From Woeseia sp. (lineage in GTDB: Bacteria; Pseudomonadota; Gammaproteobacteria; Steroidobacterales; Woeseiaceae): DNA of 64,000 nt. Within the stretch, counting starts at the first letter, position 1, and every line of letters starts with the position of its first letter. The notes beneath the pieces are model-generated. The model did no database searches and was not told the DNA's origin. It saw only the letters and a list, made by a program, of their open reading frames with translations. This document shows positions 15,772 through 19,693 of this stretch, one piece after another. Position numbers and translations under genes: made by a program. The stretch covers positions 62,001-126,000 of the forward strand of contig JAJFKW010000001.1 in the NCBI GenBank assembly GCA_021773015.1, read 5' to 3'.

Positions 15772-16554
15772 GTGAAGATCGCGAAGCGAATCTGCGGATT
15801 GCTAATTTTAGCCAGTGCGACGACGGCATGTACGTTGACACCGCCGTCTGAAGACCCCGTGCTCATTCAATTAAACGACATCGACCGCCGCCTTGCTGCG
15901 GTTGAGCGTGTGCTGGCGAATGGAAGTCTCGTCGACCTGACGGTGCAAGTGGACAGCTTGCAACGGGAAGCGGCGCAAATCCGTGGTCGCACCGACACCC
16001 TTGAACACGACGCCGCTACCACCGCGAGCAGGCAGCGCGATCTTTATGTGGACCTGGATGAACGCATTCGCCTGCTAGAGGAAAGAATGCAGGGTGCGGA
16101 TTCTGGTAGCGTTACCAATGTGCTCGATGGCGGCTCCCTTGCGCCCGGTCAGTTGCCAGTGCCTGGCGGTTCCGATCAAGACAATTATCGGGCAGCATTC
16201 GAATTGTTGAAAGAACAGCGCTACGAACCCGCGGCATTGGCATTCCAGCAATTTCTGATCAGCTTTCCGGATAGCCAACTAGCAGATAATGCCCAGTATT
16301 GGCTGGCGGAATCCTATTACGTAACCGACCGCTTCAAAGAGGCCTTGCAAGAATTTGAGGTGGTCATTACGCAGTATCCTGAATCGCGCAAGGTTCCGGA
16401 TGCGTTGCTAAAAACCGGCTATTGCAATTACGAGTTACAGCAATGGAACGACGCGCGCGCGGCGTTGCTTCGCGTCCAAGCAGAGTATGCGGACACGACT
16501 GCGGCTCGGCTCGCTGATCAGCGCCTCAATCGGATGCGCGAAGAGGGCAATTAG
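15772..16554 (+). CDS. cpoB: Cell division coordinator CpoB (YbgF)
   Basis: Periplasmic protein that coordinates Tol-Pal function with peptidoglycan synthesis at the septum. It has 260 residues from a GTG start. An N-terminal export signal is followed by a coiled-coil trimerisation segment (about 28-110) and a C-terminal TPR domain (about 140-258) with repeats such as AAFELLKEQRYEPAALAF and AQYWLAESYYVTDRF. The signal reads LLILASATTAC with Cys20, which resembles a lipobox although Thr at -3 is unusual. E. coli CpoB has a soluble-protein signal instead. It ends the tol-pal run, 11 bp after pal. Confidence 0.93.
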   Translation: MKIAKRICGLLILASATTACTLTPPSEDPVLIQLNDIDRRLAAVERVLANGSLVDLTVQVDSLQREAAQIRGRTDTLEHDAATTASRQRDLYVDLDERIRLLEERMQGADSGSVTNVLDGGSLAPGQLPVPGGSDQDNYRAAFELLKEQRYEPAALAFQQFLISFPDSQLADNAQYWLAESYYVTDRFKEALQEFEVVITQYPESRKVPDALLKTGYCNYELQQWNDARAALLRVQAEYADTTAARLADQRLNRMREEGN

Positions 16555-16731: not shown

Positions 16732-16806
16732 GGGGCGTTAGCTCAGAGGTAGAGCATTCGGCTTTTAACCGACTGGTCGTAGGTTCGATCCCTACACGCC
16801 CCACCA
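16732..16806 (+). tRNA. tRNA-Lys (anticodon TTT)
   Basis: A 75 nt cloverleaf with acceptor GGGGCGT pairing with ACGCCCC, D-arm GCTC/GAGC, anticodon loop CTTTTAA (anticodon TTT), T-arm TAGG-TTCGATC-CCTA and an encoded CCA. The outer pair of the anticodon stem (T27-C43) is mismatched; the other four pairs are sound. A strong hairpin terminator starts 7 nt after the CCA. The 3' part of the gene is repeated 253 bp downstream. The organism may have other tRNA-Lys genes outside the window. Confidence 0.96.
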
Positions 16807-16860
16807 ACACCAAAGACCACCCCGAGGGTGGTCTTGTCGTTTGCGGAACGGCGGGATCGC
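16784..16860 (+). repeat. Direct repeat, copy 1: tRNA-Lys 3' end plus terminator (possible attachment site)
   Basis: This 77 bp segment matches 17037-17113 at 75 positions, the first 63 without a mismatch. It begins in the T-loop of tRNA-Lys (TTCGATCC), runs through the CCA end and covers the downstream terminator hairpin. A duplicated tRNA 3' end is what site-specific integration into a tRNA gene leaves behind. This copy sits in the intact tRNA. Confidence 0.85.
16813..16835 (+). terminator. Rho-independent-type terminator after tRNA-Lys
   Basis: A perfect 10 bp stem, AAGACCACCC pairing with GGGTGGTCTT, encloses a CGA loop, followed by GTCGTTT. The T tail is broken, but stem strength and position just after the tRNA make it a credible terminator. 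Confidence 0.75.
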
Positions 16861-17036
16861 GTGCCGATGCACAACTGTCGTCGTCTCTAGACTGACCCTG
16901 CGTACTGAAGATCCATCCCAGTCCGTCCAGGTAGTCGAACAAGGCGGGAGGGATCTACACGGACTGACGTTTACTGCACTAAAGATCAATCCGCACCGAC
17001 TGATAGGGTTCAAATATCATCGAGGGCGGATTGGGA

Positions 17037-17113
17037 TTCGATCCCTACACGCCCCACCAACACCAAAGACCACCCCGAGGGTGGTCTTGTCGTTTGCGGG
17101 ACGGTGGGATCGC
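17037..17113 (+). repeat. Direct repeat, copy 2: orphan tRNA-Lys 3' end plus terminator
   Basis: Second copy of 16784-16860. It holds only the last part of the tRNA (T-loop, acceptor 3' strand, CCA) and then the terminator, with no 5' tRNA half upstream, so it cannot make a tRNA. Two substitutions occur in its last 14 bases. This fits the distal attachment site of a lost or nearly lost element. A decayed tandem tRNA copy is the alternative. Confidence 0.85.
17066..17088 (+). terminator. Duplicated terminator hairpin upstream of thrA
   Basis: An exact copy of the 10 bp stem and CGA loop found after tRNA-Lys, 253 bp further on. It would still stop any transcript coming from the tRNA side and so insulate thrA. 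Confidence 0.7.
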
Positions 17114-17209
17114 TTTCCTTGCCGTGACTAGCCTCCGCAAAAAAGACACGACGCGGGAAGGATCTGCCGCTATTATTAGCCGCTTTGTGTGTACCGGAAC
17201 TCTAAGAGC

Positions 17210-19693
17210 GTGTCAAAAACCCGTTGGAAAATTCATAAGTTTGGGGGTTCGAGCCTTGCCGACGTAGGCTGTATTCGCCGCGCTGCGAGCATCGTTGCGG
17301 AGTTGCCGAAAACCAATATTGGCGTTGTCGTTTCCGCGATGCGCGGTGCGACAGATCGACTGCTGCATTCTGTGAGCCTCGCAGAGCGGGACGATCGACG
17401 TTGCATGGCCGAAATTACAGATGTTTTGGCACGCTATACACAGGCTGCACAGGAACTTTTACAGGCCGAACATCTCATTTCATACTTGGATCAACTAGCT
17501 GCAGATGAGTCCGCAATCGGCGATGTTCTAAACGGCGTCGCAGCTGCGAAATCCGGGGATGTACGCAGCCGGGAAGTTGTTGCGGGCTATGGCGAGATGT
17601 GGTCGGCAAGGTTGCTTGCTGGTTTCCTAAAGACTGAATTACCCGGCAACCGTGGTGGCGCTTACCTGGATGCAGTTAACGTGATCGTAGTGCAGGAGAG
17701 CGAGCTTGGGCCCAGTGTTCAATGGGAACAATCGCAGGCCAACTTTGATCGCGAGATTGCCGCGGACTTCCAAGGCGTAGTCGTCATTACTGGATACGTT
17801 GCGACAGACATTGACGGTTTACAGACAAGTCTGGGACGCAACGGTAGCGATCATTCAGCAGCGATTATTGCTGCGCTAAGCGGTGCGACGGAATTGTCCA
17901 TATGGACTGATGTCGATGGCGTAATGAGCGCGGACCCGAACAAGGTGCCGGATGCACAGATAATCGATTCGTTGTCCTACAGTGAAGCGATGGAGTTGGC
18001 TTACTTCGGGGCCAAGGTTATTCATCCGCAAACGCTGGGTCCCGCCGTCAGCAATGATATTCCAGTGGTCATCCGCAACACCTTCAATCCGCAGCACGAA
18101 GGCAGCAAGATTTCTGCAGACGTTACTGATAGTGGACAAATCAAGGGTGTAACTGCGGTGGCGAATATGGCGTTGGTCAATTTGGAGGGCGCTGGCATGA
18201 TCGGTGTGCCAGGAACGGCCGATCGCATGTTCTCCGCACTAAAGAATGCTGCTGTCTCCGTAAATCTTATTTCACAAGCGAGTTCGGAACACTCAATTTG
18301 CGTGGCCGTGCCCAACGAACTAGCTGACCGTGCCAAAAATGTTGTCGTCGAAGCATTTGCTGCAGAGTTGGAAAGTGGTCAAATTCAAAGCGTTGATGTT
18401 AATCACAATCAAAGCATTATTGCGGTCGTTGGCGACGGCATGGCAGGTACACCAGGAATCGCAGCCCGCTTTTTTGGCAGTTTAAGTCGTGCTCGCGTAA
18501 ATATTAGAGCCATGGCTCAAGGGTCGTCCGAAAGAAACATATCAGCGGTCGTCAATAGCGACGATACGACACGGGCATTGCGCGCAGCGCATTCTGGTTT
18601 TTACTTATCTGCAAAAACGATTTCAGTTGGCTTGATCGGGCCAGGTACAGTGGGCAGCACCTTTCTTGATCAGCTGCAGCAGCAATCCTCTCGCTTACAG
18701 CAGGATTTTAATCTGGATTTACGGGTTCGCGCGATTGCAAGATCACAGAGAATGATTTTCGGCGAGCGTCGGGTCGATATCGGAAATTGGCGCGCGCACG
18801 ACAAAGAAAATTCGCTTGCATTGGATTTGGAGCTATTCGAAAAACACGTTCATCCGGATCACATTCCGCACGCGGCGATTATAGATTGCACGGCCAGCGA
18901 TGACATGGCTGATCGGTACGCGGAATGGTTGGATCGAGGCATTCATATCATTACGCCGAACAAAAAAGCGTTTAGCGGCGATCTTCAGCGGTTCGACGAG
19001 ATTCGCGATGCGCAACGGCGCAGTGGCGCGCGATGTTTTTATGAGACCACAGTGGGTGCTGCCTTGCCGGTGATTACGACGCTGCGTGATTTAGTAGATA
19101 CCGGTGATCAAATTCACTCTGTTCAGGGAATATTTTCTGGCACCTTGGCGTATTTGTTTAATGTGTTCGATGGCTCGCGGCCATTTTCCGAAGTCGTGCG
19201 CGAAGCGAAAGAAAGTGGCTACACGGAACCCGATCCACGCGAAGACTTATCGGGAATGGACGTGGCCAGAAAACTGACAATACTGGCGAGAGAGATGGGA
19301 CAGAGAATCGAACTTGGCGACTTTCCGGTACAGAATCTCGTTCCAGAGGCGCTGCGCGAGGTGACCGTGAATGAGTTTCTCGACCAACTTGCGGATTATG
19401 ATGCGGAGATGACGGCCACCTTGGCAGCGGCCAAAAAAGCACAAAAGAACTTACGTTACATTGCAAAGCTGGATGCGGCGGGCGAAGCCTCGGTGAGCTT
19501 GGAGGCAGTCTCGGCTGATCACGCGTTCAGCAATATCGATTTGACAGATAATATTGTGCAATTTGCTTCAACGCGTTATTCGGCAAACCCACTGGTCATT
19601 CAAGGCCCGGGGGCTGGTCCCGCGGTGACGGCGGGTGGCGTATTTGGCGACTTGCTTAAGCTCGCAAACCAGCTTGGAGATGGCAGCCAATGA
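17210..19693 (+). CDS. thrA: Bifunctional aspartokinase / homoserine dehydrogenase
   Basis: Catalyses the first and third steps from aspartate to threonine. An aspartokinase domain comes first (KFGGSSLADV near the N-terminus; WTDVDGVMSADPNKV and the PQTLGPA region further on). Two ACT-type regulatory repeats follow at about 310-470, then homoserine dehydrogenase with NAD(P) motif GLIGPGTVGS at about 478 and the catalytic region around TITPNKKAF / FYETTVGAALPVI. About 827 residues from the GTG at 17210; a GTG at 17189 would add 7 residues. Neither start has a good ribosome site, so the start is uncertain. Feedback control by threonine is expected from the family. thrB overlaps its stop. Confidence 0.95.
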   Translation: MSKTRWKIHKFGGSSLADVGCIRRAASIVAELPKTNIGVVVSAMRGATDRLLHSVSLAERDDRRCMAEITDVLARYTQAAQELLQAEHLISYLDQLAADESAIGDVLNGVAAAKSGDVRSREVVAGYGEMWSARLLAGFLKTELPGNRGGAYLDAVNVIVVQESELGPSVQWEQSQANFDREIAADFQGVVVITGYVATDIDGLQTSLGRNGSDHSAAIIAALSGATELSIWTDVDGVMSADPNKVPDAQIIDSLSYSEAMELAYFGAKVIHPQTLGPAVSNDIPVVIRNTFNPQHEGSKISADVTDSGQIKGVTAVANMALVNLEGAGMIGVPGTADRMFSALKNAAVSVNLISQASSEHSICVAVPNELADRAKNVVVEAFAAELESGQIQSVDVNHNQSIIAVVGDGMAGTPGIAARFFGSLSRARVNIRAMAQGSSERNISAVVNSDDTTRALRAAHSGFYLSAKTISVGLIGPGTVGSTFLDQLQQQSSRLQQDFNLDLRVRAIARSQRMIFGERRVDIGNWRAHDKENSLALDLELFEKHVHPDHIPHAAIIDCTASDDMADRYAEWLDRGIHIITPNKKAFSGDLQRFDEIRDAQRRSGARCFYETTVGAALPVITTLRDLVDTGDQIHSVQGIFSGTLAYLFNVFDGSRPFSEVVREAKESGYTEPDPREDLSGMDVARKLTILAREMGQRIELGDFPVQNLVPEALREVTVNEFLDQLADYDAEMTATLAAAKKAQKNLRYIAKLDAAGEASVSLEAVSADHAFSNIDLTDNIVQFASTRYSANPLVIQGPGAGPAVTAGGVFGDLLKLANQLGDGSQ

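Follow-up and report, generated by a model that had tools for sequence, protein, structure and literature searches.

A Duplicated tRNA-Lys Tail in Woeseia and a Family of Gene-End Duplications Beside a Dispersed Hairpin Repeat

The tRNA-Lys Locus

The window, by which we mean the whole analyzed stretch of 64,000 nucleotides from a Woeseia sp. genome, contains an intact tRNA-Lys gene set in the order cpoB-like, tRNA-Lys, thrA-like (Table 1). These flanking genes are not the queE-queC neighbors that the initial annotation had named for such a site, and that part of it has to be given up. Its central observation holds: the stretch from the T-loop to the CCA end, together with the DNA downstream of it, recurs at a spacing of 253 bp. 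Positions 16784-16860 and 17037-17113 are identical at 75 of 77 places (97.4%; BLAST E ∼1e-32), the first 63 without exception, and the ungapped repeat can be extended to 82 nt at 95% identity (16784-16865/17037-17118). The copied stretch reaches 54 nt beyond the end of the tRNA and includes a terminator-like stem, which a simple terminator scan did not flag at 16813-16835. Neither ARAGORN nor Rfam finds a second tRNA at the locus, in agreement with the earlier statement that the second copy lacks a 5′ half; what the window holds is one extra tail.

Table 1. Features of the tRNA-Lys locus, in positions of the window
Feature	Position	Strand	Basis and remarks
cpoB-like gene, upstream neighbor	15772..16554	+	ORF; Pfam PF16331 (TolA_bind_tri) and PF13174 (TPR); upstream of tRNA-Lys in relatives too
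tRNA-Lys (TTT), intact	16732..16806	+	ARAGORN; Rfam RF00005, 71.4 bits
Copy 1 (X): tRNA part from T-loop to CCA, then stem and DNA beyond it	16784..16865	+	82 nt, 95%; 77 nt, 97.4%
Terminator-like stem AAGACCACCCCGAGGGTGGTCTT, 3′ of tRNA-Lys; second occurrence at 17066-17088	16813..16835	+	
Linker	16866..16916	+	No match elsewhere in own genome at E 0.001
Left hairpin unit, inverted and degenerate; arms CCCAGTCCG / CGGACTG	16917..16967	-	79% match at C1:1907025
Dispersed hairpin unit: box GCACTAAAGATC, arms AATCCGC (16988-16994) / GCGGATT (17026-17032), right end GGG	16976..17035	+	
Copy 2 (X′): part from T-loop to CCA, then stem and DNA beyond it; begins one base past the hairpin unit	17037..17118	+	
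thrA-like gene (aspartokinase / homoserine dehydrogenase), downstream neighbor	17189..19693	+	ORF; Pfam PF00696 (AA_kinase) and PF00742 (Homoserine_dh); conserved in relatives

The Same Site in Relatives

How does this site look in related genomes? (Handles beginning with G denote genomes, G000 being that of the window, and those beginning with L denote loci.) Among 29 relative tRNA-Lys loci, thrA lies within ∼150 bp in 21. Inserts separate the two genes in G010, G013, G029, and G002, in the last case up to the contig end; two more loci stop at a contig end, and one has a different gene order. The G002 insert (L060:1861-2891) starts directly after the tRNA-Lys with a broken tyrosine integrase, spread over two frames that match PF00589 (Phage_integrase) and PF13495 (Phage_int_SAM_4). 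In G013 (L061:3461-4831) the insert measures 1.25 kb and ends with a partial tRNA-Lys tail (positions 31-75) immediately before thrA; its one frame, of 195 aa, has no Pfam match. G033 (L059:2225-4704) is a mirror of the usual tail copy, in that the 5′ half of tRNA-Lys follows cpoB and is itself followed by a DUF885 gene and a complete tRNA-Lys. Finally, G029 (L058:10200-17900) has 7.7 kb with several frames between tRNA-Lys and thrA, a stretch in which no tail copy was found and no integrase was recognized by eye. With inserts in G002, G013, G010, G029, and G033, the proposal that the locus is a hotspot is borne out.

A pair of this kind could also be what is left of two complete tRNA-Lys genes in tandem, one of which has decayed, and the continuation of the 82-nt repeat beyond the tRNA into downstream DNA is compatible with such an origin. 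However, the 5′ half is absent, the second copy is abutted by a hairpin unit (see below), and a second full tRNA-Lys was found at none of the 29 relative loci (≤1.5 kb per side, some cut by contig ends); second full matches on another contig in G015 and G021 are due to overlapping contig ends. On the strength of this count, tandem decay was rejected as highly improbable, and the initial annotation's preference for insertion at the tRNA 3′ end is upheld.

The Spacer and Its Hairpin Unit

The DNA between the copies had been described as free of genes. This stands, as the one frame present (96 aa, TTG start) does not make a credible gene, but the spacer is not featureless: 16917-17035 is a dispersed hairpin repeat. 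The spacer, for which the initial annotation suggested a search against integrative elements, matches neither phages nor plasmids; the repeat occurs elsewhere in the own genome. There, a search with the locus gives 15 matches: 13 fall on the spacer part, one is the self-match, and one is to another tRNA.

In the window, the repeat reads GCACTAAAGATC-AATCCGC-N31-GCGGATTG-GG and is present as an inverted pair. The general form of the unit is a box, GCRCTAAAGATC, then the arm AATCCGC, a loop of 31-34 nt, the arm GCGGATT, and a G, with GG usually after it. All 96 strict copies have a length of 53-56 nt with differing loops, under a pattern that permitted 40-68. The arms covary between own-genome copies, with 112 of 126 pairs, whereas swaps average 104.2 and none of 1500 reaches 112, in a test set of 18 box-only hits that includes a likely chance hit (L053) and copies without a right arm at the expected place (L046, L051, L052, L054). 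Because of this covariation, it can be concluded that the hairpin is kept, in DNA or RNA. The RNA fold of the spacer is no more stable than that of shuffles (z -0.22), and Rfam returned nothing above gathering score except tRNA and tmRNA. The linkers are unrelated from copy to copy, so that the left end of the element is undefined. At two loci after COX3 (L191 and L193, in G021 and G017), another palindromic repeat splits the unit between box and arm.

The unit forms a dispersed family. Its core box has 18 matches in the own genome with ≤2 mismatches (reversed control, 0). With the strict pattern, the unit was found in 24 of the 61 genomes of the family, from 10 of 12 genera (control, 0). When a collection containing a single genome for each of 84,980 species was scanned, 87 stretches came up, which belong to Woeseiaceae or Woeseia wherever a family or genus is named. 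The exceptions are Bacterium MnTg02 and a record from Bacillota; the Bacillota hit (L263, among 17 added copies) is probably a chance match within a coding frame. We infer that the family carrying the unit is Woeseiaceae. Viral contigs contain no exact match to the pattern. As copies were mostly retrieved with a strict pattern of fixed arms, variants are undercounted. No description of the repeat was found in the open-licence literature, searched at listing level. Contig ends close to the repeat in G000 were also considered as a signal; several fall at rRNA or at sequence common to contig ends, and nothing is claimed from them.

REP/BIME sequences are described (PMC3733652) as short palindromic dispersed repeats, often in inverted pairs and mostly downstream of coding regions, with GTAG or CGTC as the tag at the hairpin foot. 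The unit is likewise dispersed, palindromic, and also found in inverted pairs, but it measures 60 nt, has a loop of 31-34 nt, and carries its own box in place of that tag. It differs from the REP/BIME and RAYT system further in that the own genome has no Y1 transposase and the unit is linked to copied gene ends. Y1 transposases occur in 37 of the 61 genomes, in 17 of 24 with the unit versus 20 of 37 without it; neither G000 nor G006 has one, and RAYT was thus rejected as a necessary driver.

Copied Gene Ends Beside the Unit

The link with gene ends is a statistical one. A repeat of DNA from ≤250 bp upstream directly follows the unit on its right in 29 of 89 copies (25 loci), compared with 1/86 in the shifted control, 5/89 in the inverted control, and 8/88 in the mirror control, the last being probably inflated by arrays. 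The right junction lies at the foot of the hairpin. Seven of the 96 strict copies were left out of this test for short flanks, and 60 of the 89 testable ones have no detectable copied end. Among the copies added later, 3 of 15 show a copied end (two of them in one array) versus 0 of 14 in the control.

The same order, gene end, linker, hairpin, and copied gene end, recurs at tRNA-Lys, tRNA-Leu, tRNA-Asn, tRNA-Met, tmRNA, and protein genes including COX3. A pattern of the unit followed by a T-arm gives 10 hits in 7 of 61 genomes and none in the control; these hits lie at tRNA-Lys (the window), tRNA-Met (G068, G006), tRNA-Leu (G017), and tRNA-Asn (G023, G076), as well as at L067 and L073, where a full tRNA was recognized at neither place. 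At the tmRNA of the own genome, which has this order too, the stems after the two tails differ. A same-strand tRNA stands within 420 bp upstream of the unit in 15 of 88 copies, as opposed to 4, 1, and 0 for the other placements (25 of 113 copies left out). With regard to protein genes, copied stretches are found at COX3 (identified by PF00510) in G064 and G024, and at others with frames of ∼100-480 aa.

Where does the copied stretch begin and end? In 22 of the 29 rows it starts with GG, and the window is among the remaining seven, with GG, an extra A, and then TTCGA. GG also follows most unit copies in general (82% and 78%), and it may be part of the unit rather than a mark of the target. Some tRNA copies start away from the T-arm (L101, L143, L062). 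The far end was analyzed in 30 chosen rows: it falls ≤5 nt from the stop codon in 7 of 13 rows with a long frame, one of which (L107) is doubtful, given that L080, a row that matches it, lacks a stop at this place. In the six remaining rows the ends lie at -115, -53, -13, -9, +14, and +46, with +14 and +46 coming from array rows. Three of the nine RNA-gene rows end ≤6 nt from the RNA end, and the rest at 13, 14, 54 (Lys), 97, 106, and 121. The inserted units at the loci examined measure ∼100-250 bp. The assignment of the repeat pair of the window to a recurrent set of gene-end duplications associated with the dispersed hairpin is well supported.

These data bear on the model of the initial annotation, in which the two repeats are attL and attR of an island that targeted the tRNA and has since been lost or has collapsed; under such a model, the hairpin repeat would be there by chance. 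The locus does resemble tRNA-integrated genomic islands, with an intact tRNA on one side, a tail copy as direct repeat on the other, and relatives with inserts at the site, one of them with an integrase; partial tails resulting from integration are well documented (PMC9897764), and tail copies without the unit exist. However, the hairpin abuts the copy, the same order is seen at several tRNAs, a tmRNA, and protein genes, the spacer is without phage or plasmid match, and the DNA between the copies has neither a credible gene nor an integrase, unlike islands that use tyrosine recombinases. A large element lost almost in its entirety is not supported: the spacer contains a short dispersed hairpin repeat, which appears in the same setting elsewhere. 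A small self-contained insertion explains the recurring order, so that a lost island is not needed. The tail copy is probably not the scar of one: a small element is the more likely source of the pair, and the island model seems to us distinctly unlikely. More generally, a tRNA tail copy need not signal a lost genomic island.

An Empty Site at COX3

An empty site is available from one locus, which is COX3 and not tRNA-Lys. G024 has the COX3 gene end followed by linker, hairpin, and copied gene end, and G036 has the site without the insert. The DNA past the second copy in G024 is native flank: it matches the post-COX3 DNA of G036 at 53 of 65 aligned positions, which 0 of 1000 shuffles attain. 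The linker has no match in G036, its score being attained by 226 of 1000 shuffles. The insert therefore consists of linker and hairpin, and the gene end was duplicated or replaced. In G064, the two COX3 ends match without a difference over 54 nt, which suggests that the copy is recent or was converted.

This site also helps to weigh an explanation that needs no dedicated enzyme. Here the hairpin would stall replication, the nascent strand, with GGG at its end, would re-pair with an upstream GG (in a T-arm or a gene end) and recopy the stretch, and recombination would multiply the result. The right junction at the hairpin base, the GG shared in those 22 of 29 rows, and the tandem units with identical hairpins are all in keeping with it, as are arrays in G006, a genome without Y1 or reverse transcriptase families. 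Yet if a resident hairpin caused simple back-slippage, the DNA to its left should be native, whereas at COX3 the linker is non-native and the native flank comes after the copy; the frequent copy ends near a stop codon are left unexplained as well. Simple back-slippage with native DNA on both sides is contradicted by COX3 and was discarded, and stalling with re-pairing as a whole appears rather unlikely.

Arrays and Tail Copies without the Unit

In some genomes the tails are repeated several times. G006, which is one contig of 4.06 Mb, has four extra tails after tRNA-Asn at exactly 179 bp, three after a tRNA-Met at 179-180 bp, and two after another tRNA-Met at 176-177 bp. The array unit is made of tail, terminator-like stem, linker, and hairpin, and in one of the tRNA-Met arrays the final hairpin is truncated. 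Of the four tRNA-Asn units, three have the same sequence and the fourth differs at 6 places, which indicates a recent amplification. To account for the G006 arrays, unequal recombination between tails is sufficient. Tail arrays are also present in G002 and G017.

Other tail copies come without the unit. This is the case for tRNA-Leu(GAG) in the own genome and in G002, where L333 has three extra tails every 217-220 bp with stem and linker present and the hairpin unit absent, and for tRNA-Lys in G026, with a 25-nt tail copy 100 bp downstream. At tRNA-Leu(CAG) of the own genome, the sole unit is inverted and lies beyond the second tail. From the tRNA-Leu cases it can be concluded that T-arm tail copying is wider than the hairpin, or that the hairpin was lost there.

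Possible Mechanisms

What, then, made the pair at tRNA-Lys? The reading that we prefer, and to which we would give an even chance, is that the pair marks the entry of a small non-autonomous element whose insertion at gene ends leads to their duplication. Such an element would consist of the linker and the 60-nt hairpin unit, present at the window as an inverted pair. It would have entered the 3′ end of tRNA-Lys, the tRNA being left, or rebuilt, intact, and a second copy of the tail would have come to lie past the insert. A recombinase or nicking enzyme may act at the right end of the hairpin and at a target GG, which in tRNAs would usually be that of the T-arm, GGTTCRA. The longer arrays would then have grown via unequal recombination between tail copies.

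A more elaborate possibility, unlikely as we see it, is that of a mobile cassette system for gene 3′ ends in general, with the hairpin unit as its recombination end. Each cassette would comprise a replacement end (either a tail or the final codons), followed by linker and hairpin; it would insert at a GG inside a gene, rebuild the gene, and push the old end downstream. In layout it would resemble an integron, but one whose cargo is gene ends and whose attachment sites are genes. Integron attC sites have GTTRRRY and RYYYAAC boxes at their hairpin ends. Such boxes were not found at the ends of the unit, which finishes with GCGGATTG-GG.

A third route would be for a structured RNA to be inserted by target priming, in the manner of SINE/LINE systems, which would give an exact 3′ end, a variable 5′ end, a target duplication of variable length, and priming by a CC-3′ end on the terminal GG. 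The fixed right end and variable left end, the duplications of 18 to >100 nt that mostly start with GG, and the covariation of the arms all fit such an RNA. Against it, the window linker is without a donor in the own genome, and reverse transcriptase (PF00078) occurs in 3 of 24 genomes with the unit versus 7 of 37 without, and not in G006. A resident reverse transcriptase was rejected as driver on the basis of these counts, and the RNA route as such is quite improbable.

Relation to Known tRNA-Tail Repeats and Other Neighbors of the Unit

RtT repeats have long been known. The distal repeats of E. coli tyrT/tyrV (rttR region) are alike in that tandem copies of a tRNA 3′ tail stand downstream of the gene: in E. 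coli K-12, 19 nt of tRNA-Tyr occur three times after tyrV at 178-bp spacing and once after tyrT. The G006 array units of 176-180 bp have the same layout. The differences are that the tyrT-type tail starts inside the T-loop (AATCC), whereas the Woeseiaceae copies mostly start at GG, and that the hairpin described here is dispersed and also marks the ends of tmRNA and protein genes. The Rfam RtT family has no match at the window locus or in the arrays.

If the preferred reading, a small element inserting at gene ends, is right, it would offer one frame for tRNA-tail repeats such as those of E. coli tyrT, and it would mean that a hairpin repeat without genes can shape the 3′ ends of genes, whether for tRNA, tmRNA, or protein, throughout a bacterial family. 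In G006, with its single contig, the near-identical arrays of 179 bp render the process testable.

Two minor observations concern other neighbors of the unit. At L309:764 (G000:C2) and L312, one hairpin unit lies ∼110 bp past a 5S rRNA gene and two follow a 104-aa gene that resembles ribosomal protein S10 (named by eye); similar gene ends precede units in relatives, at L088, L145, and L246.
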